Below are positions 13,024 through 22,932 of a stretch of 61,665 nt of DNA, in pieces. Positions within the stretch are counted from its first letter, which is position 1. Every line of letters begins with the position of its first letter. The stretch is taken from assembly GCF_902859645.1 (NCBI RefSeq), contig NZ_CADIJR010000038.1:1-61665 (forward strand), written 5' to 3'. Under the pieces are notes generated by a model, which saw only the letters and a list, made by a program, of their open reading frames with translations, ran no database searches and was not told the DNA's origin. The DNA is from Achromobacter insuavis (lineage in GTDB: Bacteria > Pseudomonadota > Gammaproteobacteria > Burkholderiales > Burkholderiaceae_B). Both the position numbers and the translations under genes were made by a program.

Positions 13024-13169
13024 GGTTGCCGCCGGGTCGTCGCCGCGCCGCGATGCTCGTCTCGCAACCGATGATTGCTTCCCCAAGGCCGCCATCGTCG
13101 CATCGTGGGGCGGCGACAACGGATCGCCTTTAAACTGTGTCTCTTTGCCAGATGCCGGAATCGTTGCCC

Positions 13170-13820
13170 ATGAAAGTCCCCCGAGTCGATGACAAGCCGC
13201 CGCGCCCGCCGCGTACCAAACCCGCGGAGGTCCGGCTGGAGGAATTGATGGCCGCCGCCGAAAAGCTGTTCCTGGCCAACGGGGTCGAAGCCACCACCAT
13301 CAATGCGATCGTGGAAGAGGCCCAGGTCGCCAAGGGCACGTTCTACCACTACTTCTCCGCCAAGACCGACATGCTGGCGGCGTTGGCCCAGCGTTACACG
13401 CGCCAGTACCTGGAAGCGCTCGAACGCGCCGTCGATGCCTGTGCCGCGGATGACTGGGTGGGCAAACTGGGGGCGTGGGTGCATGCCAGCGTCCAGACCT
13501 ACGCCGACACCTACCGCACGCACGACATCGTCTACAGCAATCACCACCACCACGACCGCCAGAACCGCGACAAGAATGCCATCCTGGACCAGCTGCTCGG
13601 CATCCTGGAAGGGGGCAGGGCCGCCGGGGTGTGGGCGCTGCCCCGACCCCGGATCACGGCGCTGCTGATCTATTCGGGCGTGCATGGCGTGACGGACGAC
13701 GCCATCGCGGCACGCCTGGAGGATTGCTCGGAATTCGCCCGTGACGTTGCCGCGGACTGCCTGTGCATGCTGGGCGTGCCGCCGCCAGCCATGTCTATGC
13801 GCTCCCCGCCAGCGCGTTGA
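13170..13820 (+). CDS. TetR-family transcriptional regulator
   Basis: A 216-residue regulator. The helix-turn-helix is EELMAAAEKLFLANGVEATTINAIVEEAQVAKGTFYHYFSAKTDMLAAL; the ligand domain contains an unusual THDIVYSNHHHHDRQNRDKN stretch with four consecutive His that could bind a metal. The start at 13170 (MKVPRV) has GGAA ten bases upstream; ATG 13152 and GTG 13137 are in-frame alternatives. It is convergent with, and overlaps by 26 bp, the last gene of the TonB/ABC operon. It is a candidate repressor for the TetR-type palindrome at that operon's promoter. Confidence 0.85.
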   Translation: MKVPRVDDKPPRPPRTKPAEVRLEELMAAAEKLFLANGVEATTINAIVEEAQVAKGTFYHYFSAKTDMLAALAQRYTRQYLEALERAVDACAADDWVGKLGAWVHASVQTYADTYRTHDIVYSNHHHHDRQNRDKNAILDQLLGILEGGRAAGVWALPRPRITALLIYSGVHGVTDDAIAARLEDCSEFARDVAADCLCMLGVPPPAMSMRSPPAR

Positions 13821-15174
13821 CCAGCGGGGCGACGCAGGGCGCCTGCGCCAGATCGTTGATCCGCGCGGCGACAAGGGGGGCGGCGCGGCGCATGGCGGCG
13901 CTGGCGGACAGGCTGCAGCACAGCATGAATTTGCGTTCGAGCGCGGCCTGGTCGAGCGGGTTTTCCGGCCATCCCCGTCCATACGCGGCCGCCACCACGA
14001 CCGGCGCGGCATCGGCAGGCCGGATCTCCAGGCGGCAGGCATCGAAGCGCGCCAGCGAGGGATCTTCGATGATCTCCACCCGTTGCGCCAACGCCTGCAC
14101 GGCCGGTTCCCGGGCCGCCCTGGCGGTGAACTGCGCCGGGGTGGCGGCGCCGCGCAGCAGGGCATTGGCCACGATATAGCGGGCGCTGAACTGCGCATCG
14201 ATTTCGGCGGTTTCCGCCGGGGCATAGGGCGCGCCGCACACCATGCGCATGGTGGGCGACACATGCAGCCGCAAGGTGCTGCCAGCCAGCCGCGGTCGCG
14301 GCAGTTCATGGCGACGCGCCAGCAATGCGTCCGTCAGCGCCAGCAGGATGCTGCAATGCGGGTAGGGCTTGAAGCAAGTCGCCTCGCGCCCCAGGTAGCG
14401 GTGCCCCAGATCGGCCGTCAAGGCGCTCAAGTCCGGCTCACCCGGCGCGTAGAGTCGGAAAAAGCCATTTTCGCCGCCCAGGATGCGGCGGGGGCCGGTC
14501 AGGCCGGCCTGCGCCATTTGCGCGGCTTCGATCGCGTGGCGCGCCACCATGGCCTGGCCGATGCGGACCGCAAGGACCTTGTCCTGATAGTGCTGGAAGG
14601 TGCCGATGCCGGAATCGAACGCCAGCCCCACCGCCGACGTGAAGGATTCGCGCGGCAGGCGCAACAGCCTGGCCGCGATGACGGCGCCGGAGAACAGGCC
14701 CAGGACATTGGAATCGAAGCCGCGGTAGAAGAAACCGTGGGCCTGCGCGGCCAGATTGATACGCTGGCCGACATCCTGGCCGATGGCCAGCGCCGCGAGC
14801 AATTCGCGCCCGGAGGCGCCGCAGTGCTCCGCCATGGCCAGCGCGACCGGAATATCCGAGGAGCTTGGATGCCAGCCCGGAGAGATCACGTCGCAGAAAT
14901 CCAGCGCCCGCGCGCGCACGGCATTGACGAAGGCCGCCTGGCCCGCGGCCAGGCGGGTGTCGGTGCCCAGCACGGTGGCTTCCTCGGCGCCGCTCCAGCG
15001 CCGCGCCAGCGACAGGGCGGCGTCGACCCCGGAGGCGTCGTAACCCGCGGCCAGGCAGGCCAGGTGGTCGAGCAGGCGCAGACGCTGGAACGCCAGGGTG
15101 GCAGGCGGGATATGGTCGCTGTGGACCGCGTGGGCGGCGTCGAGCAAGGGTGAGATCGGATCCTGGGCGTACAT
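13795..15174 (-). CDS. MmgE/PrpD-family enzyme
   Basis: A 459-residue protein of the MmgE/PrpD family, which includes 2-methylcitrate dehydratase, cis-aconitate decarboxylase and iminodisuccinate epimerase. Visible family features are RALDFCDVISPGWHPSSSDIPVALAMAE, GQDVGQRINLAAQ, and FKPYPHCS before the smaller lid domain. It is the last gene of a six-gene operon headed by a TonB receptor, 14 bp after the C-type-lectin-like gene, with its own RBS (GGGAGA). No prp or citrate genes are nearby, so it is not the propionate-pathway enzyme by context. I infer that it acts on a polycarboxylate brought in by the transporter. Confidence 0.82.
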   Translation of the reverse strand: MYAQDPISPLLDAAHAVHSDHIPPATLAFQRLRLLDHLACLAAGYDASGVDAALSLARRWSGAEEATVLGTDTRLAAGQAAFVNAVRARALDFCDVISPGWHPSSSDIPVALAMAEHCGASGRELLAALAIGQDVGQRINLAAQAHGFFYRGFDSNVLGLFSGAVIAARLLRLPRESFTSAVGLAFDSGIGTFQHYQDKVLAVRIGQAMVARHAIEAAQMAQAGLTGPRRILGGENGFFRLYAPGEPDLSALTADLGHRYLGREATCFKPYPHCSILLALTDALLARRHELPRPRLAGSTLRLHVSPTMRMVCGAPYAPAETAEIDAQFSARYIVANALLRGAATPAQFTARAAREPAVQALAQRVEIIEDPSLARFDACRLEIRPADAAPVVVAAAYGRGWPENPLDQAALERKFMLCCSLSASAAMRRAAPLVAARINDLAQAPCVAPLVNALAGSA

Positions 15175-15188
15175 GGGGTTCTCCCGGT

Positions 15189-16271
15189 TCAAGGCATGAA
15201 GGCTGGGCGCGCGCCGACGGTGGCGCTGGCGTGGTCGTGGGCATGGCTCAGGCACAACGCATTCAGTCCGGCGTCCAGGCCCGAGTACCAGGCGCCGCCC
15301 GCCAGCATCATGCGTTCGCCGTAGTTGCGCAGATAGGCCTGCGCGCGCTCGGCGGCATGGCCAACGGGATAAAGCGCCAAGGTCTTGAGCAAGGCCGGCG
15401 CCTGGACGCCGGCCGCCGGGCGGATGGCGCCGAACGGCGCGTCCATGAGCCCGGCCGTGTTGGCGTTGCTGCCCGCCTGGCCGGCAAAGCAGTGGATGAC
15501 CGCGCAGAGCAGCGGCGCGCCCGCGTTACCCTCGGGCGCGTGGCGCGGGCAATCGAACTTGGCCGTCCCGGCGGCGCCCGGCGGCACCAGCGCCCCGTCC
15601 GCCAGCCGGATCGCCCGCCAGGCGCCGGCGCGCGCGGACAGGTCGGCCTGCACGGCGTCGTTGTCGGGGATGATCTGGATTTCACCGTCCAGCAGCCGCA
15701 GGCCGGCGGTCCATTCCCACAGGTTGCCGCACAGGTCGGCAATGCCGTGCGCCGTGCCGTCGTGCCGCCAGCGGTCGGGCCCGGAGCCGGTCAGGGTGGC
15801 GGGGTTGCCCTGGGCGCAGCCGGGCGCGCGGCCATCGACCCGCACGCCATGCTGCCCGGGCGCCACGGCGTCCCGGCCTTGGTCGGTATTGCCGCGCGGG
15901 AGGTGGCCGCGTTCGCGGCACCATTGCGCCAGCGCGGCCCGTTCGGCATTGGTGGCCAGGTGCCAGCCGGGGCCGCAGGCCCGCGCGGCCCGATGGGCTT
16001 GATCGAAATCCATGCCGCTGCCGGGCGCCTGGCCGGGCAGGCTGAGCAGTTCGCCGGCGCGTATCACGCCGCCATAGGTGCCGTAGAAGAACACCTGCTG
16101 CTGCCGTCCGGCCAGAACGAATGCGGGGTGTTCGCCGCCGGGAAAATCCTGCCGCAGGATCAGGTTCATGTAGCTGGCCTGTCCGCGGCGGGTATACAGC
16201 ACGGTGCGCCGTCCGCCCGAGGCGCGTTCCACGCGGGCGCGCAGCGCGTCCTGTTTCCAGTAGGTGATCAT
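15189..16271 (-). CDS. C-type-lectin / FGE-fold protein of the DGR-target type
   Basis: A 360-residue protein without signal peptide or membrane helix. It reads end to end like SUMF1-type variable proteins of phages and diversity-generating retroelements. Key segments are HPAFVLAGRQQQVFFYGTYG (48-67), LSLPGQAPG, GPGWHLATNAERAALAQWC (100-118), LPRGNTDQG, HGIADLCGNLWEWTAGLRL (175-193) and DGEIQIIPDNDA. The C-terminal segment GERMMLAGGAWYSGLDAGLN..VGARPAF (318-358) corresponds to the usual variable region. No reverse transcriptase or template repeat was seen in the window. The start overlaps the ABC ATPase stop by four bases (ATGA), so the protein is translationally coupled to a metal-uptake operon. 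A true sulfatase-modifying role is unlikely, as no sulfatase is present. Confidence 0.8.
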   Translation of the reverse strand: MITYWKQDALRARVERASGGRRTVLYTRRGQASYMNLILRQDFPGGEHPAFVLAGRQQQVFFYGTYGGVIRAGELLSLPGQAPGSGMDFDQAHRAARACGPGWHLATNAERAALAQWCRERGHLPRGNTDQGRDAVAPGQHGVRVDGRAPGCAQGNPATLTGSGPDRWRHDGTAHGIADLCGNLWEWTAGLRLLDGEIQIIPDNDAVQADLSARAGAWRAIRLADGALVPPGAAGTAKFDCPRHAPEGNAGAPLLCAVIHCFAGQAGSNANTAGLMDAPFGAIRPAAGVQAPALLKTLALYPVGHAAERAQAYLRNYGERMMLAGGAWYSGLDAGLNALCLSHAHDHASATVGARPAFMP

Positions 16272-17071
16272 GGCGATGGCTCCGGTGAATTCTGGCGTAG
16301 CGAACCGTCGACAATGACCTGCCAGTGCCCTTGGGAGCAGGGCTCGACCCGCGCGTCGACGCCATAGACCCGCGCGAGCAAGGCCGGGGTGATGACCTGT
16401 CGCGGCGCGCCCTGGGCGAACACGCCTGTCTGGTGCAGCACCACGGCATGGTCGGCAAAGCGCAGCGCGTGATTGAGGTCATGGATCGCCATGACGATGC
16501 ATAGCGACCGCTGGCGCGACAGCCCGCGCAGCAGGGCCAGCACCTCGTATTGGCGTTGCAGGTCGAGCGCGCTGGTGGGCTCGTCCAGCAGCAGGATGCG
16601 GGGCGATCGGATCAACGCCTGGGCGATCGACACCAGCTGGCGCTGCCCGCCGCTCAACGCCGCCAGTTCACGCCCGGCCAGGTCGCCGATCCGCAGGGCT
16701 TTCAGCAGATGCGTCACGGCGTCGAGTTCGGTCTCATCGACCGACCAGCCCGCCCCTTGCTTGGCCGCGAGCAGTACGGCCTCGAACACCCGCAGCGACG
16801 ATCCGCTGGAGATGTCCTGCGGCACGTGGGCGGGGCGATTGGGGTGCTGCGGCGGCCACGACACGACCGACCGGCCCGCCACCGCGACCGCCCCCGGACC
16901 GGACAACTCCCCCGCGATGCGGCGCAACAGCGTCGACTTGCCCGCCGCGTTCGACCCCAGCAAGGCGGTCACGCTGCCCGGCATCAACCCGGGCAGGTCG
17001 ATCCCGTGCAGCACGCGTCGGGCGCCGTATGACGCGCCCACGCCGCGCACGTCGAGCAGGGGCGCGCTCAT
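16268..17071 (-). CDS. ABC transporter ATPase, iron-chelate type (FecE/FhuC-like)
   Basis: A 267-residue nucleotide-binding subunit that powers uptake through the FecCD permease. Walker A is GSNAAGKST (39-47), the signature LSGGQRQL (139-146), Walker B ILLLDEP (159-165) and the switch His197 is in AIHDLNH. The family-typical C-terminal part (GVFAQGAPRQVITPALLARVYGVDARVE) marks it as a siderophore/haem/B12-type importer. Its start overlaps the permease stop by four bases, and its stop overlaps the next gene by four. Confidence 0.95.
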   Translation of the reverse strand: MSAPLLDVRGVGASYGARRVLHGIDLPGLMPGSVTALLGSNAAGKSTLLRRIAGELSGPGAVAVAGRSVVSWPPQHPNRPAHVPQDISSGSSLRVFEAVLLAAKQGAGWSVDETELDAVTHLLKALRIGDLAGRELAALSGGQRQLVSIAQALIRSPRILLLDEPTSALDLQRQYEVLALLRGLSRQRSLCIVMAIHDLNHALRFADHAVVLHQTGVFAQGAPRQVITPALLARVYGVDARVEPCSQGHWQVIVDGSLRQNSPEPSP

Positions 17072-18156
17072 GGCCGCCTCCGGCGCAGGATCAGGGTGAA
17101 GAACAGCGGCACTCCCACCAGCGAGGTGACAATGCCGATCGGCAAGGTCTGGCCGGGCAGCACCGACTTGCTGAGCACCGAGGCGGCGGACAGCAGCAGC
17201 GCGCCGCACAGCGCGGCGGCCGGCAGCAGGAAGCGCTGGTCTTCGCCCACCACCATCCGCGCGATATGCGGTCCCACCAGCCCGATGAACCCGATGGTGC
17301 CGACAAACGACACGCAGACCGAGGCCAGCAGGCTGCCCAGCAGGATGCTGCTCAGGCGCAGCCGGGCGACGGGAATGCCCAGGCTGGCCGCGCGCGCCTC
17401 GCCCAGCCGCAGCGCCGTCAGGGCCCATGCCTGGCGCGCAAAGACCAGCCAGACCCCGGCAAGCACGCCGCCCATGATGGCCAGCTTGAGCCAGTTCGCG
17501 CGCGACAGGCTGCCCATGGTCCAGAACACGACGGCCGATAACGCCTGGTCCGGCGCGACATACTGCAGGGCTTCGAGCAGGGCGGTAAACGAGAACACGA
17601 GTGTCGTGCCCAGCAGCACGATCATCTCGCTGCTGATGCCCGGTTTGCGGCTCAGGCGGTGGATGAACAGCGCGGCGCCCATGGAAACGAGAAAGGCATT
17701 GGCCGGGATGGCATACGCCACGGCCGCAGCGGGCAACAGCGTCACGCCCAGCACCAGGCCGATGGCGGCGCCGAAACTGGCGGCGGCGGACAGGCCCAGC
17801 GTAAAGGGGCTGGCCAGCGGATTGTTCAGCACGGTCTGCATCTGCACGCCGGCCACCGCCAGGCTGGCGCCGACCACCAGCGCGGACAGGGCGACCGGCA
17901 GGCGCAATTCCCAGAAAATGACCTGCACCGCCAAGGGCGCATCCGGCCGCCACAAGGCGGCCAGGATTTGCCCGGGCGGATAGACCGCCTGGCCGGTCGA
18001 GAGATCCAGGCCCAGGCAAGCCAGCGTCAACAGGGCGATGCCGAGCAGGATCAGGCGCCGGCGCCGGACCAGTCGCCGGTAGGCCCGCCGGCCTTGTTCG
18101 CGTTCGGCCGGCGAGGCGGGGTGCGGGGCGGACAGCGCAGAGCGTTCGTGTGTCAT
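17068..18156 (-). CDS. ABC transporter permease, FecCD family
   Basis: A 362-residue polytopic protein with about ten membrane segments. Family motifs include LRLPVALSALVVGASLAVAG, VLNNPLASPFTLGLSAAASFGA near the N-terminal third, and GTIGFIGLVGPHIARMVVGEDQR before the last helices (the loop that contacts the ATPase). It moves a chelated metal or corrinoid-like ligand from the periplasm to the cytoplasm. Start 18156 (MTHERSALSAPH) overlaps the binding-protein stop by four bases. Confidence 0.95.
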   Translation of the reverse strand: MTHERSALSAPHPASPAEREQGRRAYRRLVRRRRLILLGIALLTLACLGLDLSTGQAVYPPGQILAALWRPDAPLAVQVIFWELRLPVALSALVVGASLAVAGVQMQTVLNNPLASPFTLGLSAAASFGAAIGLVLGVTLLPAAAVAYAIPANAFLVSMGAALFIHRLSRKPGISSEMIVLLGTTLVFSFTALLEALQYVAPDQALSAVVFWTMGSLSRANWLKLAIMGGVLAGVWLVFARQAWALTALRLGEARAASLGIPVARLRLSSILLGSLLASVCVSFVGTIGFIGLVGPHIARMVVGEDQRFLLPAAALCGALLLSAASVLSKSVLPGQTLPIGIVTSLVGVPLFFTLILRRRRP

Positions 18157-19307
18157 GAGTCGGTGTTCAGGCTGAGCCAGTAGCCCGGTTGATAGGCAAC
18201 GGGCAGGAATCGCGCATGCAGTTCGCGAAAGGTGGCGTCGGGATCGAGCGTGGCGAAACGCTCGGGATGCAGCCACTTGGCGACCTTCTGCAAGGCGACG
18301 AAGTAGTAGGGGTTGTCATAGAAGGGGTGCCAGATGGCGTGTACCCGCCCCCGCCGCACGGCGGCGAGCGTGCGATAGGCCGGCCGCTGCATCAGGCGCC
18401 GCAGGCGCGCGTGGCCTTCGGACGGATCGGCGCCCGGGCCGAGATTGACCCAGTCGCCCGTCGGCGAATACAGCCTCCAGTCGGCCCCGGTCACCAGAAT
18501 GACTTCCGGATCGGCGGCGATCACCTGCTCGGGGTGCAACGTGCCAAAGGTGCCGTGCAACCAGTGCGATCCCAGGTTGTCGCCGCCGGCGGCCGTGACC
18601 AGTTCGCCGAAATTGCCATCGCCATAGGAAAGGCAGCAATCGTCATACAGGCCGGCCGCCCGCTCGACCATGACGCTGGGGCGATGGCCGAGGTCCCGCA
18701 ACGGCGCCATGACACGGTCGATCTGTCGCTGGCGAAACCGCAGGAAGGACTGGGCGCGGACAGGCTCGCCCAGCACCTCGCCCATGATTTCGATGCTGCG
18801 TCGGGTGTTCTCGAACATGCGCGTGCGGAAGTCGACGTAGGCCAGGGGCACGCCGGCCCGCGCCAGCCGCGCCGCCAGGCCGGACGATTCGGCGGCGGCG
18901 CGCGAGCTCAGGTTCAACACCACCACGTCCGGTTCCAGCGAAATCGCCAGTTCGATGTCGATGGCGCCCACATTGGAGCCGCGAAACGTGGGAATGCGGT
19001 CGATCGTGGGAAAACGCTGGCGATAAGCCTGGTAGCCCCCCAGGTCGGCGGAACGGAAGTTGTCGCCCCAGCCCACGATGGGCGTGAATGGATCGTCCGG
19101 ACGCAGTAGCGCGACCACGTAGGCCAGCGGGCCGTCGCCCAGCACGATACGGCGGGCCGGCAGGCGCGCCCGCACCGGGCGGCCGGCGATATCGGTCAGC
19201 GTGGCGGTGCCCTGCGCGGTGCCGCCCGCCGTGGCCAGAGGCAGCAGCGCGGCGCCGGCCATGCCGCGCAGGATCGCCCGGCGGGGGCGGGAGGGTGTCA
19301 CGGGCAC
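18153..19307 (-). CDS. Periplasmic iron-chelate-type binding protein
   Basis: A 384-residue protein of the helical-backbone metal receptor class (FepB/FecB-like). The N-terminus SRPRRAILRGMAGAALLPLA has a twin-arginine pair before a hydrophobic stretch, so export by Tat is plausible. Core features include PARRIVLGDGPLAYVVALLRPDD, LEPDVVVLNLSS and VIAADPEVILVTGA. It starts at GTG (19307), four bases after the receptor stop; a second GTG at 19301 is possible. It should bind the ligand delivered by the TonB receptor and pass it to the permease. Confidence 0.9.
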   Translation of the reverse strand: MPVTPSRPRRAILRGMAGAALLPLATAGGTAQGTATLTDIAGRPVRARLPARRIVLGDGPLAYVVALLRPDDPFTPIVGWGDNFRSADLGGYQAYRQRFPTIDRIPTFRGSNVGAIDIELAISLEPDVVVLNLSSRAAAESSGLAARLARAGVPLAYVDFRTRMFENTRRSIEIMGEVLGEPVRAQSFLRFRQRQIDRVMAPLRDLGHRPSVMVERAAGLYDDCCLSYGDGNFGELVTAAGGDNLGSHWLHGTFGTLHPEQVIAADPEVILVTGADWRLYSPTGDWVNLGPGADPSEGHARLRRLMQRPAYRTLAAVRRGRVHAIWHPFYDNPYYFVALQKVAKWLHPERFATLDPDATFRELHARFLPVAYQPGYWLSLNTDS

Positions 19308-19311
19308 GGCG

Positions 19312-21591
19312 TCACCAGCGGTAGCTCAGGGTCGCGACGGCGCTGCGGTCCTGGCCAATGAAGCAGTACATCGCCGATACGCAACTGGCGACGTAATGCT
19401 TGTTGGTCAGGTTGCTGACGTTCAGCCCCAGGCTGGCGCCGCGCAGGCCGGGCGAGAGCCGGGCCAGGTCATAGCTGACGGCCATGTCCAGCAGCGTGAC
19501 GGCGGGCACCTTGAAGGTGTTGGCCGGGTCGCCGTAGGTCGAGCCCAGGTAGCGCACGCCGACGCCAGCCAGCAGGCCCGCCAGCGGGCCGCCGCCGACG
19601 CGGTAGTCCACCCAGGCCGAGGCGCTGTGGCGCGGGGTCTGGGCCAGGCTCTTGCCGCGATACGCCGCATCCTTGACCAATTGATTGTCCAGGTAGGCAT
19701 AGCTGGCGATCAGGTTCAGGCCGGGAGCCAGCCGGGTGTTGGCCTGCAGTTCGACGCCTCGCGAGCGCACTTCGCCCGATTGCGTCCAATAGCCCAGATG
19801 CCGGGTATCCGATGTCTTGACGTTGGTCTGGTTCAGCTGGAACACGGCCGCGCTCAGCATCGTGCTCGAATTCGCGGGTTGGAACTTCACGCCCGCTTCG
19901 TACTGGGTCGCCTCGGTCGGCTTGAAGGCGCTGCCGCCGTAATCGTTGCCCAACACCGGGTCGAACGAGGTGGCATAGCTGAAGTAGGGCGAGAGGCCGT
20001 TATCGAAGACATAGCCCAGGCCCGCGCGCGTGCTCCATTTGCGGTCTTTCTGTTCGCTGCGCTTCCAGACGGGCGAATAGCTGCGCGATTCATCCTCGGT
20101 TCTGGAGGAGTCGTGCCGCGCGCTCAACGTCAGGCGCCAGCCTGCGTAGGCCACCTGGTCCTGGGCGTAGACGCCCACGCGGTCAAAGCGCTGGCGCACG
20201 TTGTAGGGCCAACGGGTCCTGCTGTCGGTGAAATCCGGTGTGGCGACAGGGCGATAGTGGTCGGGATCGTAAGGGTCGAACGCCACCGGATCCATGCGAT
20301 ACGAGTCGTTGCGCAACGTGCCCTTGGCGTAGTCAACGCCCAGCAGAAGGGTGTGCCGGGTCGGGCCGAGGTCGAAGCTGCCAGTGAGGTTGTTGTCGGC
20401 CGAGAAGGTGTTGGAACTGGCCGGGGCCAGGCCGTAGGTGCCTTCGAGCCACAGGTGGCCGGCCCGGTTCTGATAGCCGTAGATCGAGGTGCGCTGGATG
20501 TCGGAGTCGACGTACATGTAGCGCATGTTGCTGTTGAAGGACCAGCCATTGCCGAAATCATGGCTGAACAACGAGCTGATCGAATCCTGCTTGCGGCTCG
20601 ATCCCTGGAAATCCATGTCGGTGTAATTGCGTCGGCGGTCCACCCGCGGATACGGGCTGCCATTCAGGCCCAGGGCGACCGCCGGCAGGCTGTTGTAGTC
20701 GGGAATCTCGGGCTCGCGCGAATGCGTGGCCAGCAGCGTCCACGAAGTCGAGGCCGTGGGCCGCCAGGTCAGGGCGGGCGCCAGATAGACGCGCTGGTGC
20801 CTGACGTCCTCGACCTGGCCCTTGGCGTCCAGGCCGATCGCGGTCAGCCGATAGAGCCATTGGCCGTCCTGGTCGAGCGGGCCGGTGGTGTCGATCGCGA
20901 TCTGCCGGCGGCCGAAATTGCCCATCTGCAGATTGATCTCGTGGGCGGATTCCGCCTGCGGCCGGCGGCTGACCTGGTTGACGATGCCGCCGCCCGTGCC
21001 CTGGCCGTACACCGCCGAAGCCGGCCCCCGCAGCACTTCCACGCGCTCCAACGCGAACGGATCCACCTGCGTGGTCCAGGTCGATACGTTGGTGATCATG
21101 CGCAGGCCGTCCAGGTAGTAGTCCGCGTCCACGCCCCGGATCCGGGTCAGGTCCAGCTGGCCGCCGAATCCGCCGTACTTCTCGCTGTAGGCGCCAGCGG
21201 TATAGCGCAACGCCTGGCTGGCGCTGGCCGGCTGCTGCACGTCCATCTGCCCGCGCGTGATGACGGAGATCGACTGCGGCGTCTCCAGGATGGGGGTTGC
21301 GGTCTTGGTGCCGGCGCGGGATTGCTCCGCCACGTATCCGTGGACCGGCCCTTCGGCGCCCGCGTCGCTGTCGCCGCTGACCGTGACGCCGGCAAGGGTG
21401 GGTACTTCGGCGGCGGCGTCGCCAGGGTTGCCTTGCGGGGGCGCGGCCAGGCCGGGCGAGGGCAGGGCCAGCAGGGACGCCAGCAGCAGCCCGGCGCGGG
21501 CGGCAACGCCGCGAATTGCCTGGGCAGGGGGCGCGCAAAGGGGGCAAGCAGAGGCGGGGCGAGCCTCGAATCGGCAGGTCATCGTGTACAT
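19312..21591 (-). CDS. TonB-dependent siderophore-type receptor
   Basis: About 759 residues with an N-terminal signal region (AARAGLLLASLLALPSPGLA). The plug domain carries ILETPQSISVITRGQM, RIRGVDADYYLDGLR and ERVEVLRGPASAVYGQGTGGGIVNQVSRRP, and the 22-strand barrel ends in the aromatic SYRW. It imports a ferric or similar complex using TonB energy. The start at 21591 is inferred: a TTGACC-N17-TATACT promoter (21642-21614) puts transcription start near 21607, downstream of the in-frame TTG 21642 and ATG 21624. ATG 21582 is the alternative. None has a strong Shine-Dalgarno. It is first gene of the operon reaching 13795. Confidence 0.93.
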   Translation of the reverse strand: MYTMTCRFEARPASACPLCAPPAQAIRGVAARAGLLLASLLALPSPGLAAPPQGNPGDAAAEVPTLAGVTVSGDSDAGAEGPVHGYVAEQSRAGTKTATPILETPQSISVITRGQMDVQQPASASQALRYTAGAYSEKYGGFGGQLDLTRIRGVDADYYLDGLRMITNVSTWTTQVDPFALERVEVLRGPASAVYGQGTGGGIVNQVSRRPQAESAHEINLQMGNFGRRQIAIDTTGPLDQDGQWLYRLTAIGLDAKGQVEDVRHQRVYLAPALTWRPTASTSWTLLATHSREPEIPDYNSLPAVALGLNGSPYPRVDRRRNYTDMDFQGSSRKQDSISSLFSHDFGNGWSFNSNMRYMYVDSDIQRTSIYGYQNRAGHLWLEGTYGLAPASSNTFSADNNLTGSFDLGPTRHTLLLGVDYAKGTLRNDSYRMDPVAFDPYDPDHYRPVATPDFTDSRTRWPYNVRQRFDRVGVYAQDQVAYAGWRLTLSARHDSSRTEDESRSYSPVWKRSEQKDRKWSTRAGLGYVFDNGLSPYFSYATSFDPVLGNDYGGSAFKPTEATQYEAGVKFQPANSSTMLSAAVFQLNQTNVKTSDTRHLGYWTQSGEVRSRGVELQANTRLAPGLNLIASYAYLDNQLVKDAAYRGKSLAQTPRHSASAWVDYRVGGGPLAGLLAGVGVRYLGSTYGDPANTFKVPAVTLLDMAVSYDLARLSPGLRGASLGLNVSNLTNKHYVASCVSAMYCFIGQDRSAVATLSYRW

Positions 21592-21613: not shown

Positions 21614-21642
21614 AGTATATTCATCGACCGACCGTCGGTCAA
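21614..21642 (-). promoter_or_regulatory. Sigma70-like promoter with overlapping TetR-type operator
   Basis: On the minus strand TTGACC (21642-21637) and TATACT (21619-21614) are separated by exactly 17 bases. The palindrome GACCGAC-C-GTCGGTC (21626-21640, 7-bp perfect arms) covers part of the -35 and most of the spacer, the usual place for a TetR-family repressor. No convincing Fur box was seen here. Confidence 0.7.
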
Positions 21643-21818: not shown

Positions 21819-21843
21819 TCACGATAAGATTCCATTATCGTGA
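21819..21843. promoter_or_regulatory. Perfect inverted repeat upstream of the kfrA-like gene (site 2)
   Basis: TCACGATAA (21819-21827) and TTATCGTGA (21835-21843), 9-bp perfect arms with a 7-base spacer, 33 bp before the KfrA-like start codon. The sequence differs from site 1, so the two may bind different proteins, or one may be the promoter-proximal operator. Confidence 0.55.
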
Positions 21844-21876: not shown

Positions 21877-22932
21877 ATGGCCACGGGAATTACGGAATTG
21901 GATGTCTGGCGCGCCTCCGACGCCTTGCTGCTGGAGGGCGCGCGGCCCACCATCGAGCGGGTGCGCCAGAAGATCGGGCGTGGCTCGCCCAATACGGTCA
22001 GTCCGCACCTGGAATCCTGGTTCCGATCGCTGGGCGCGCGCATCCAGGATCCGGGCGCGTTCGCGGCGCCCGCCGCGGTGCCCGAGCCGGTGGCCCAGGC
22101 CGCCGCGCATTTCTGGGAATCGGCGCTGGCCGCCGCCCGCGCCGAGCAGGCCGAGGCCAACCGACAGCGCTGGGCGGAACTACATGAAGAGGGCGAGCGG
22201 CTGGATGCGCTCACCGAACAGCTGCGCCAGCGCGAAGCCAATCTGGAACACCGCGAACGCGACCTGGAGGCCGGCCTGAAGGTCGCCACCGGCCAACTGG
22301 CCGCCACCGAGGAACGCCTGCGGGCGGCCGAGGCCCAGTTGCGCCAGCGCGACGAAGCCGTGGCGGTGGAGCAACGGCAGTTGGCGGACGCCCGCGGCGC
22401 CTTGCTGGCTCACGTGGCCGATGCCGAGCGCGCCCGGGGCGAGCAGGCCGAGGCCCTGGCCGCCACCCAGGAGCGTCATGCCGCCCATGAGCGCCGCTGG
22501 CTCAACGAGCTGGACGCCGAGCGCGGCCAGGTCAAGCGCCTGCAGGCCCGGCTGGACGAATTGCAGGCCGCCCAGCAGCAACAGGCCGAACAATCGCGCC
22601 AGGCCCTGGCGCAGGCGGCCGAGCGCCAGCGCGGCGCCGAGTCAGAGGCCGCCGAGCGCCTGCGGGCGGCCCAGGCCGAGGTCCTGGCCGCGCGCGGGGA
22701 AGCCCAGGCGCAGCTGAGCCGGCAACTGGCCGATGTGGCCGTCGCGCAGGAAGCGCTGCAGGCCTCGCGCCGCCGCGAGCAGGACCTGACCCAGCGCCTG
22801 GCGGCCAGCGATGCCCAGCAGGCGGACCTGCTGGGCCAGTTGCGGACCCGCGACGGGCAGTTGCTGGAACTGACGCGGCACCTGATTGCCGCCCGGGTCG
22901 CCGTGCGGCCCACGCCGGGCGGGACGAAATAG
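21877..22932 (+). CDS. KfrA-like DNA-binding coiled-coil protein
   Basis: A 351-residue protein. The first ~70 residues (ITELDVWRASDALLLEGARPTIERVRQKIGRGSPNTVSPHLESWF) match the KfrA N-terminal helix-turn-helix. From about 80 to 335 it is an almost unbroken Ala/Gln/Glu/Arg-rich heptad coiled coil. KfrA on IncP and related plasmids is an autoregulated, filament-forming protein linked to plasmid maintenance. Here it is chromosomal by context, with no replication or partition genes visible. Two perfect palindromes precede it. A nucleoid-structuring or local repressor role is an inference. Confidence 0.85.
   Translation: MATGITELDVWRASDALLLEGARPTIERVRQKIGRGSPNTVSPHLESWFRSLGARIQDPGAFAAPAAVPEPVAQAAAHFWESALAAARAEQAEANRQRWAELHEEGERLDALTEQLRQREANLEHRERDLEAGLKVATGQLAATEERLRAAEAQLRQRDEAVAVEQRQLADARGALLAHVADAERARGEQAEALAATQERHAAHERRWLNELDAERGQVKRLQARLDELQAAQQQQAEQSRQALAQAAERQRGAESEAAERLRAAQAEVLAARGEAQAQLSRQLADVAVAQEALQASRRREQDLTQRLAASDAQQADLLGQLRTRDGQLLELTRHLIAARVAVRPTPGGTK

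Follow-up and report, generated by a model that had tools for sequence, protein, structure and literature searches.

How does a protein whose phage relatives are varied at a hypervariable ligand site come to be held in one form inside an uptake operon? The question is raised by a gene in a 61,665-nucleotide stretch of Achromobacter insuavis (NCBI RefSeq assembly GCF_902859645.1, contig NZ_CADIJR010000038.1), referred to here as the window. The gene, termed CLec, encodes a C-type lectin-fold protein of a family known from diversity-generating retroelements (DGRs), and it overlaps the ATPase gene of an uptake operon of the siderophore or metal-chelate type. Discussion of DGRs usually centers on their ongoing generation of diversity; CLec looks like the opposite end of that process, a DGR product retained in a single form, under purifying selection, within a metabolic operon. 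The answer favored here, with somewhat better than even confidence, is that CLec is a domesticated, frozen DGR variable protein that acts on the imported chelate within the cytosol. The gene and its region of interest are as follows.

15189 to 16271, minus strand: CLec gene, 360 amino acids, TaqVP/phrog_2889 family, no signal peptide seen
15192 to 15314, minus strand: equivalent of the DGR variable region, codons 320-360, with the frozen residues A327, S330, D333, C340, H343, H347 and S349

Family, fold and the search for a template

The similarity of CLec to the TaqVP/phrog_2889 family is far beyond chance. The protein matches TaqVP (PDB 5vf4) with an E of 1.4e-77 over residues 6-359, phrog_2889 with an E of 1.2e-103 and phage Bise with an E of 3e-83. 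It also matches 52 of 50,697 phage records, 45 of these over at least 80% of the query. The whole-length homology to DGR-target variable proteins that an earlier reading of the bare sequence (the original prediction) had claimed is thus present, in sequence and in fold. The motifs it quoted are also found, including the C-terminal GGAWYSGLDAG...VGARPAF block, which lies at the low-coordinate end of this minus-strand open reading frame (ORF). Similarly, no signal peptide is apparent in the N terminus MITYWKQDALRARVE..., as judged from the sequence without a predictor. The alignment used for structure prediction consisted of the window protein and 58 of 67 full-length viral homologues.

The relatives of CLec are for the most part targets of a DGR. 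In three genomes of the family (G119, G190 and G195), phrog_2889-type homologues with 44-50% identity to CLec are followed downstream by Avd and reverse transcriptase (RT) homologues and by a 118-126-base repeat, in which 13, 11 and 13 differences fall at template A versus 2, 1 and 2 at other bases. In the G119 genome, the lectin homologue shares its gene run with genes for baseplate and tape-measure proteins. Avd, RT and template are likewise all present in phage Bise, an Ideonella plasmid and two genomes of the order (G314 and G596), with 9, 14, 5 and 12 mismatches at template A versus 0, 2, 0 and 2 elsewhere. Among viral contigs, 80 of 97 loci were kept and 67 of the 80 passed a full-length filter; a template repeat is noted in 53 of these homologues, RT in 52 and Avd in 53, with 619 mismatches at template A and 72 elsewhere. 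One locus with an internal stop (L132) is counted in these tallies and in the variable-site alignment and is excluded from the tree described below.

At CLec, neither a template repeat with adenine-specific differences nor a nearby RT and Avd was found. Searches by tblastn (E<=1e-3) detected no RT or Avd homologue in the 61.7-kb window, and none was detected at the corresponding locus of a second Achromobacter species (G011) at the same threshold. A locus-level search for a template was negative at CLec and recovered the control repeats by the same approach. Genome-wide, with 40 of 306 first-look candidates scored over 199 contigs, the last 175 bases of CLec find no second copy, the best match besides self being 38 bases with an E of 0.0019; as a positive control, the variable region of G190 finds its template with 90% identity and an E of 2e-40.

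The original prediction had also proposed a search for a DGR RT, and the genome does contain a DGR, but one aimed elsewhere. The one RVT_1 match of the genome lies in a prophage-like region on contig C2; this RT looks intact and has the SQ and YVDD motifs, which we take to be DGR-type. The complete-looking element (L047:4683-7468, about 121682-124467 on C2) includes the RT, a template and two Lcl_C (DUF1566) targets; the region also has an integrase, and no tail proteins occur among the proteins scanned there. Over a 98-base core, the mismatches to the two Lcl_C genes fall at template A in 12/12 and 16/16 cases; the DGR is considered aimed elsewhere because its template matches these two adjoining genes. 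Contig C2 is not among the matches listed for the last 175 bases of CLec, and the C-terminal DNA of CLec gives only two weak matches (E 0.002 and 0.006) to a 14-kb stretch of C2, neither at the template.

The fixed variable site

CLec is under purifying selection, and its main variable positions are fixed. Between the window and G011, the gene has a nonsynonymous divergence (dN) of 0.029, a synonymous divergence (dS) of 0.134 and a dN/dS of 0.215, alike to the 0.06-0.27 of 11 neighboring genes. The comparison of relatives for excess variation, also proposed in the original prediction, reveals none in the last 60 codons between these two species, each represented by one genome.

TaqVP has seven AAY-encoded positions: D348, N351, V354, Y361, N364, S368 and R370 (PMC6328139). 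Based on sequence alignment and the numbering of W349 and W371 in that paper, these correspond to A327, S330, D333, C340, H343, H347 and S349 of CLec (A-S-D-C-H-H-S). In the phage relatives, the seven positions rank 4th to 17th in variability among 289. In the window, G011 and a Salmonella plasmid homologue, all seven are identical, and variation is thus not concentrated at the AAY-derived positions among these three members (one genome per species). The window and plasmid proteins are the most distant pair of the three, with 58% identity (159/272) outside the variable region. For the 901 phage pairs at 50-80% identity with all seven sites filled, the mean number of shared sites is about 0.9 of 7 and the maximum is 4; phage pairs of at least 90% identity can share 7/7. 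When compared to other highly variable positions, of which 20/53 agree between window and plasmid, the chance of 7/7 is 0.0023. Of the two further variable positions of TaqVP, one has an equivalent in CLec, T351, that is fixed as well. The window and plasmid codons differ synonymously at 4/7 frozen sites, as selection on the residue predicts. Together, D333, C340, H343 and H347 may make up a metal or catalytic site.

The window, G011 and plasmid sequences group together (support 100/100; stem 0.71) among the phage proteins of a midpoint-rooted tree from which the last 45 residues were omitted and in which the window and G011 sequences were flagged for odd letter make-up. Five weak family matches (E 1e-5 to 1e-3) and a partial match in G048 are not part of this tree; neither RT nor Avd was detected close to these matches, two of the loci (L013 and L014) being short. 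The lectin gene is rare. It occurs in 2/43 genomes of the genus, and 10/268 genomes of the family have a match at E<=1e-3, five of these nearly whole length (the genome under study, G011, G119, G190 and G195). Besides the own genome, 2/399 genomes of the order match at E<=1e-10 (G314 and G596) and none of the class (369) or phylum (398) at E<=1e-20, these samples being overlapping. A scan of the genome contig collection returned one weak fragment, and E. coli genomes had no match to the CLec protein.

The plasmid copy (L141:12001-12957; CP048303.1, IncHI2A, Salmonella) encodes a protein 60% identical to that of the window, is 5'-truncated with similarity beginning at codon 48, and is followed by a convergent TetR gene (62% identity to that of the window) and a major facilitator superfamily (MFS) gene, about 4.7 kb from tet(C). 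Two plasmid records hold the copy, which sits in an IS26-flanked stretch with tet(C). A TetR homologue is found in ten plasmid records; the three inspected apart from the Salmonella record each have TetR next to an MFS gene, and the lectin gene was not seen in them.

The uptake operon and its regulation

The features surrounding CLec are listed below; apart from that of the binding protein, the gene starts of the operon are those of a simple gene caller.

13152 to 13820, plus strand: TetR-family regulator, convergent
13795 to 15174, minus strand: MmgE/PrpD-family protein, following the CLec gene at a distance of 14 bp
16268 to 17071, minus strand: ATP-binding cassette (ABC) ATPase, its 3' end overlapping the CLec start by 4 bp
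17068 to 18156, minus strand: FecCD-type permease (PF01032, E 3e-76)
18153 to 19262, minus strand: periplasmic substrate-binding protein, YiuA-like, ORF to 19307 (6b2x, E 1.8e-77)
19312 to 21591, minus strand: TonB-dependent siderophore receptor of the FhuA/FoxA type, start provisional (E 1e-144 to 3qlb, an enantio-pyochelin receptor)
21626 to 21640, no strand: palindrome GACCGACCGTCGGTC (GACCGAC-N-GTCGGTC), a TetR-type operator by its look

The TonB receptor, binding protein, FecCD permease and ATPase are encoded in a row, and by sequence the operon is of the siderophore-type or metal-chelate uptake class. The receptor matches enantio-pyochelin, ferrichrome and ferrioxamine receptors, while the binding protein matches siderophore-binding proteins (Peripla_BP_2; 6b2x, a code that appears in a paper on YiuA, PMC5683015). 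The nearest solved structures to the MmgE/PrpD protein are cis-aconitate decarboxylase and then IDS-epimerase. The TonB/ABC operon and the four-base overlap of the CLec ATG with the end of the ATPase ORF are as the original prediction described them, and its view that no phage gene is nearby agrees with the lack of a phage structural family match in the flanking genes scanned (nine, then eight genes of the window, partly the same). The conservation beside the transporter on which it had staked its proposal is found in G011, which has the same gene order and in which CLec also overlaps the ATPase gene, but the gene is of limited occurrence in the genus.

In a further genome of the genus (G021) and one of another genus (G058), the same four transport genes (62-82% identity) are followed by a flavin monooxygenase instead of the lectin protein. 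The enzyme of G021 is of the NtaA/DmoA type (TIGR03860, 520.7 bits), that of G058 is 78% identical to it, and matches include 3sdo and the EDTA monooxygenase 5dqp. NtaA-type enzymes act on aminopolycarboxylates. The monooxygenase gene overlaps the ATPase gene by four bases in G058 and is separated from it by 28 bases in G021. A convergent TetR homologue is in the same place beside the operons of G011, G021 and G058. No clear trace of a monooxygenase remnant was detected in the window (tblastn, best E 0.55), and paralogues elsewhere in the own genome and G011 have at most 58% identity. Contig C1 of G011 has, within about 31 kb (about 5.185-5.216 Mb), a paralogue of the binding protein together with two more NtaA-type monooxygenases, and contig C48 of the own genome has one of each, which suggests another chelate-use region. 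A literature search on NtaA with siderophore transport returned nothing useful.

The palindrome is found without mismatch upstream of the TonB gene in 4/4 operons and in the TetR-MFS gap of the Salmonella plasmid, and with one mismatch in the TetR-MFS gap of G021 and three other plasmid records. In the window, the perfect copy is the sole match at up to 2 mismatches, where shuffles expect 0.43 (0.08, 0.02 and 0.03 in L042, L141 and L189). As the window count is not unusual versus shuffles, the case for the palindrome rests on its recurrence in place. On the minus strand, it overlaps a -35-like TTGACC (21642-21637) and enters the 17-base spacer before a -10-like TATACT (21619-21614), a pair read by eye. 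The end of the TATACT is 22 bases ahead of the 21591 ATG; if the TonB gene instead began at the in-frame ATG at 21624, the -10 would fall within it. Given this recurrent palindrome at a promoter-like pair, the lectin gene is probably part of a TetR-controlled, substrate-induced regulon, with TetR as the predicted ligand of the palindrome. Fur control was rejected as evidence: the best upstream match to the 19-base Fur consensus is 11/19, no better than background, as one strand of the window alone has 34 places that score at least 11/19; the upstream regions of G021 and G058 reach 12/19 and 13/19.

Two further observations concern these intergenic regions. The TetR gene at 13152-13820 has no adjoining MFS gene, and a TetR-MFS pair spans the same palindrome in G021 and four plasmid records. 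A perfect inverted repeat, CACGATAA-TGGAATC-TTATCGTG, lies at 21820-21842 between the TonB gene and a divergent gene at 21877, is kept in G011, and is possibly an operator for the divergent gene.

Proposed role, rival explanations and known systems

In the proposed history, an ancestor from the phage TaqVP-like family would have been captured while its retroelement was not; the hypervariable site for the ligand would then have become fixed, and the gene coupled to the ATPase of the uptake operon. A chelate imported by the TonB receptor and the FecCD ABC transporter would relieve TetR, and the frozen lectin-fold site would bind or process this candidate ligand in the cytosol. The lectin protein would thereby do the job of the NtaA-type monooxygenase of the sister operons, and the adjacent MmgE/PrpD protein may work on that compound too, or on what is made from it. 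A carboxylate chelate may be one substrate, given the structures nearest to the MmgE/PrpD protein. A bolder version, considered doubtful, is that the hypervariable site once built by the retroelement was frozen into a new metal-binding or catalytic site of D333, C340, H343 and H347, with S330 and S349. A receptor-binding protein of phages would in this way have turned into an enzyme that works on chelates inside the cell, in place of a flavin monooxygenase.

Several points weigh against domestication as proposed. The clade is known from just three members, of which the plasmid copy is 5'-truncated, and few genomes carry the operon (its binding protein is found at >70% identity in 4/268 family genomes). 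For one of the nine variable positions of TaqVP, the equivalent in CLec, position 323, differs among the three members (L, L, K). From overall identity alone, the chance of 7/7 is 0.027, the stronger figures depending on the comparison with other variable sites. Absence of a DGR is not special by itself, as 8/39 viral homologues with at least 2.5 kb downstream and a Klebsiella plasmid homologue have no template, RT or Avd. Of 306 first-look candidates, the whole-genome template search scored 40, and the assembly is split into 199 contigs, so that a template could have been missed.

The original prediction had offered two alternatives, of which recruitment into metallophore handling agrees with the homology, coupling, purifying selection and monooxygenase slot. 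The other, that a retroelement elsewhere in the genome still diversifies CLec in trans, could draw on the intact-looking RT of C2 but is rejected as the least probable of all: this DGR has its own template and Lcl_C targets, the genome-wide search with CLec, in which 40/306 first-look candidates were scored, gives only short matches apart from itself, none lies at the C2 template, and the seven positions are fixed in the clade. That CLec is a conventional siderophore-metabolism enzyme of the FGE/SUMF1 or EgtB/PvdO type is very improbable and is rejected on profile, residues and structure. Pfam FGE-sulfatase (PF03781) scores 18.9 bits, below the 23.3 cut-off, no NCBIfam matches at E<=0.001, and TaqVP is nearer by 42 Z units in structure comparison, contrary to the outcome that the original prediction named as its refutation. 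By TaqVP equivalence, the FGE Ser-Cys-Cys catalytic triad is absent, since A327 and S330 superpose on FGE Ser333 and Cys336 and D333 is the proximal third residue. In the EgtB/OvoA sulfoxide synthases, a DinB-like iron-binding domain precedes the lectin domain; the 360-residue CLec protein has no match to such a domain at E<=1.

A phage-derived passenger (moron) with no role in uptake, kept by translational coupling or chance, would account for the phage family and the patchy distribution of the gene, but is unlikely given that its dN/dS and a third-position GC content (GC3) of 0.875 are like the rest of the operon, that the site is fixed over a long divergence, and that a homologue of the same regulator is beside the divergent plasmid copy. 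An effect on infection, in which CLec binds its own FhuA/FetA-like receptor or incoming phage tips, is quite improbable. The ancestor probably bound host surfaces, and the operon encodes a TonB receptor whose FhuA-type relatives are phage receptors (two FhuA matches are named transporter/phage receptor); by contrast, no signal peptide is seen, and the equivalent slot of the sister operons encodes a metabolic flavin enzyme.

If domestication is correct, cells can draw on DGR variable proteins for new sites of binding or catalysis, and a frozen catalytic site would be a natural counterpart of a catalytic antibody. The system lends itself unusually well to testing, since the protein is small, the seven residues are named, the operon is defined and sister operons carry an NtaA-type stand-in. 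The family is already known; the novelty lies in a member that is separated from its retroelement, fixed at its hypervariable positions and integrated in a metabolic operon. No such case was reported in the titles and abstract beginnings surveyed on DGRs with siderophore, iron, domestication or C-type lectin and on phage-tail domestication.

Of known systems, TaqVP of a Thermus aquaticus prophage shares whole-length homology, the FGE-subtype C-type lectin fold and a variable region at the extreme C terminus, and the authors of that study mention no more than the possibility that such proteins have enzymatic activity (PMC6328139). Unlike TaqVP, CLec is fixed at the main variable positions, has no template or nearby RT/Avd found, and is encoded in an uptake operon rather than a prophage. 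The phrog_2889 proteins of Bise and the G119, G190 and G195 prophages are similar in length and sequence, but have Avd, template repeat and RT downstream and, in Bise and G119, tail or baseplate genes upstream. TvpA-like cellular DGR targets differ in being diversified, TvpA having a predicted lipoprotein signal (PMC8867640). PvdO of P. aeruginosa shares an FGE-type fold and a siderophore context. The NtaA/DmoA monooxygenases of G021 and G058 share the position after the ATPase, the convergent TetR and the palindrome; unrelated in sequence, they are a replacement in position and not homologues.
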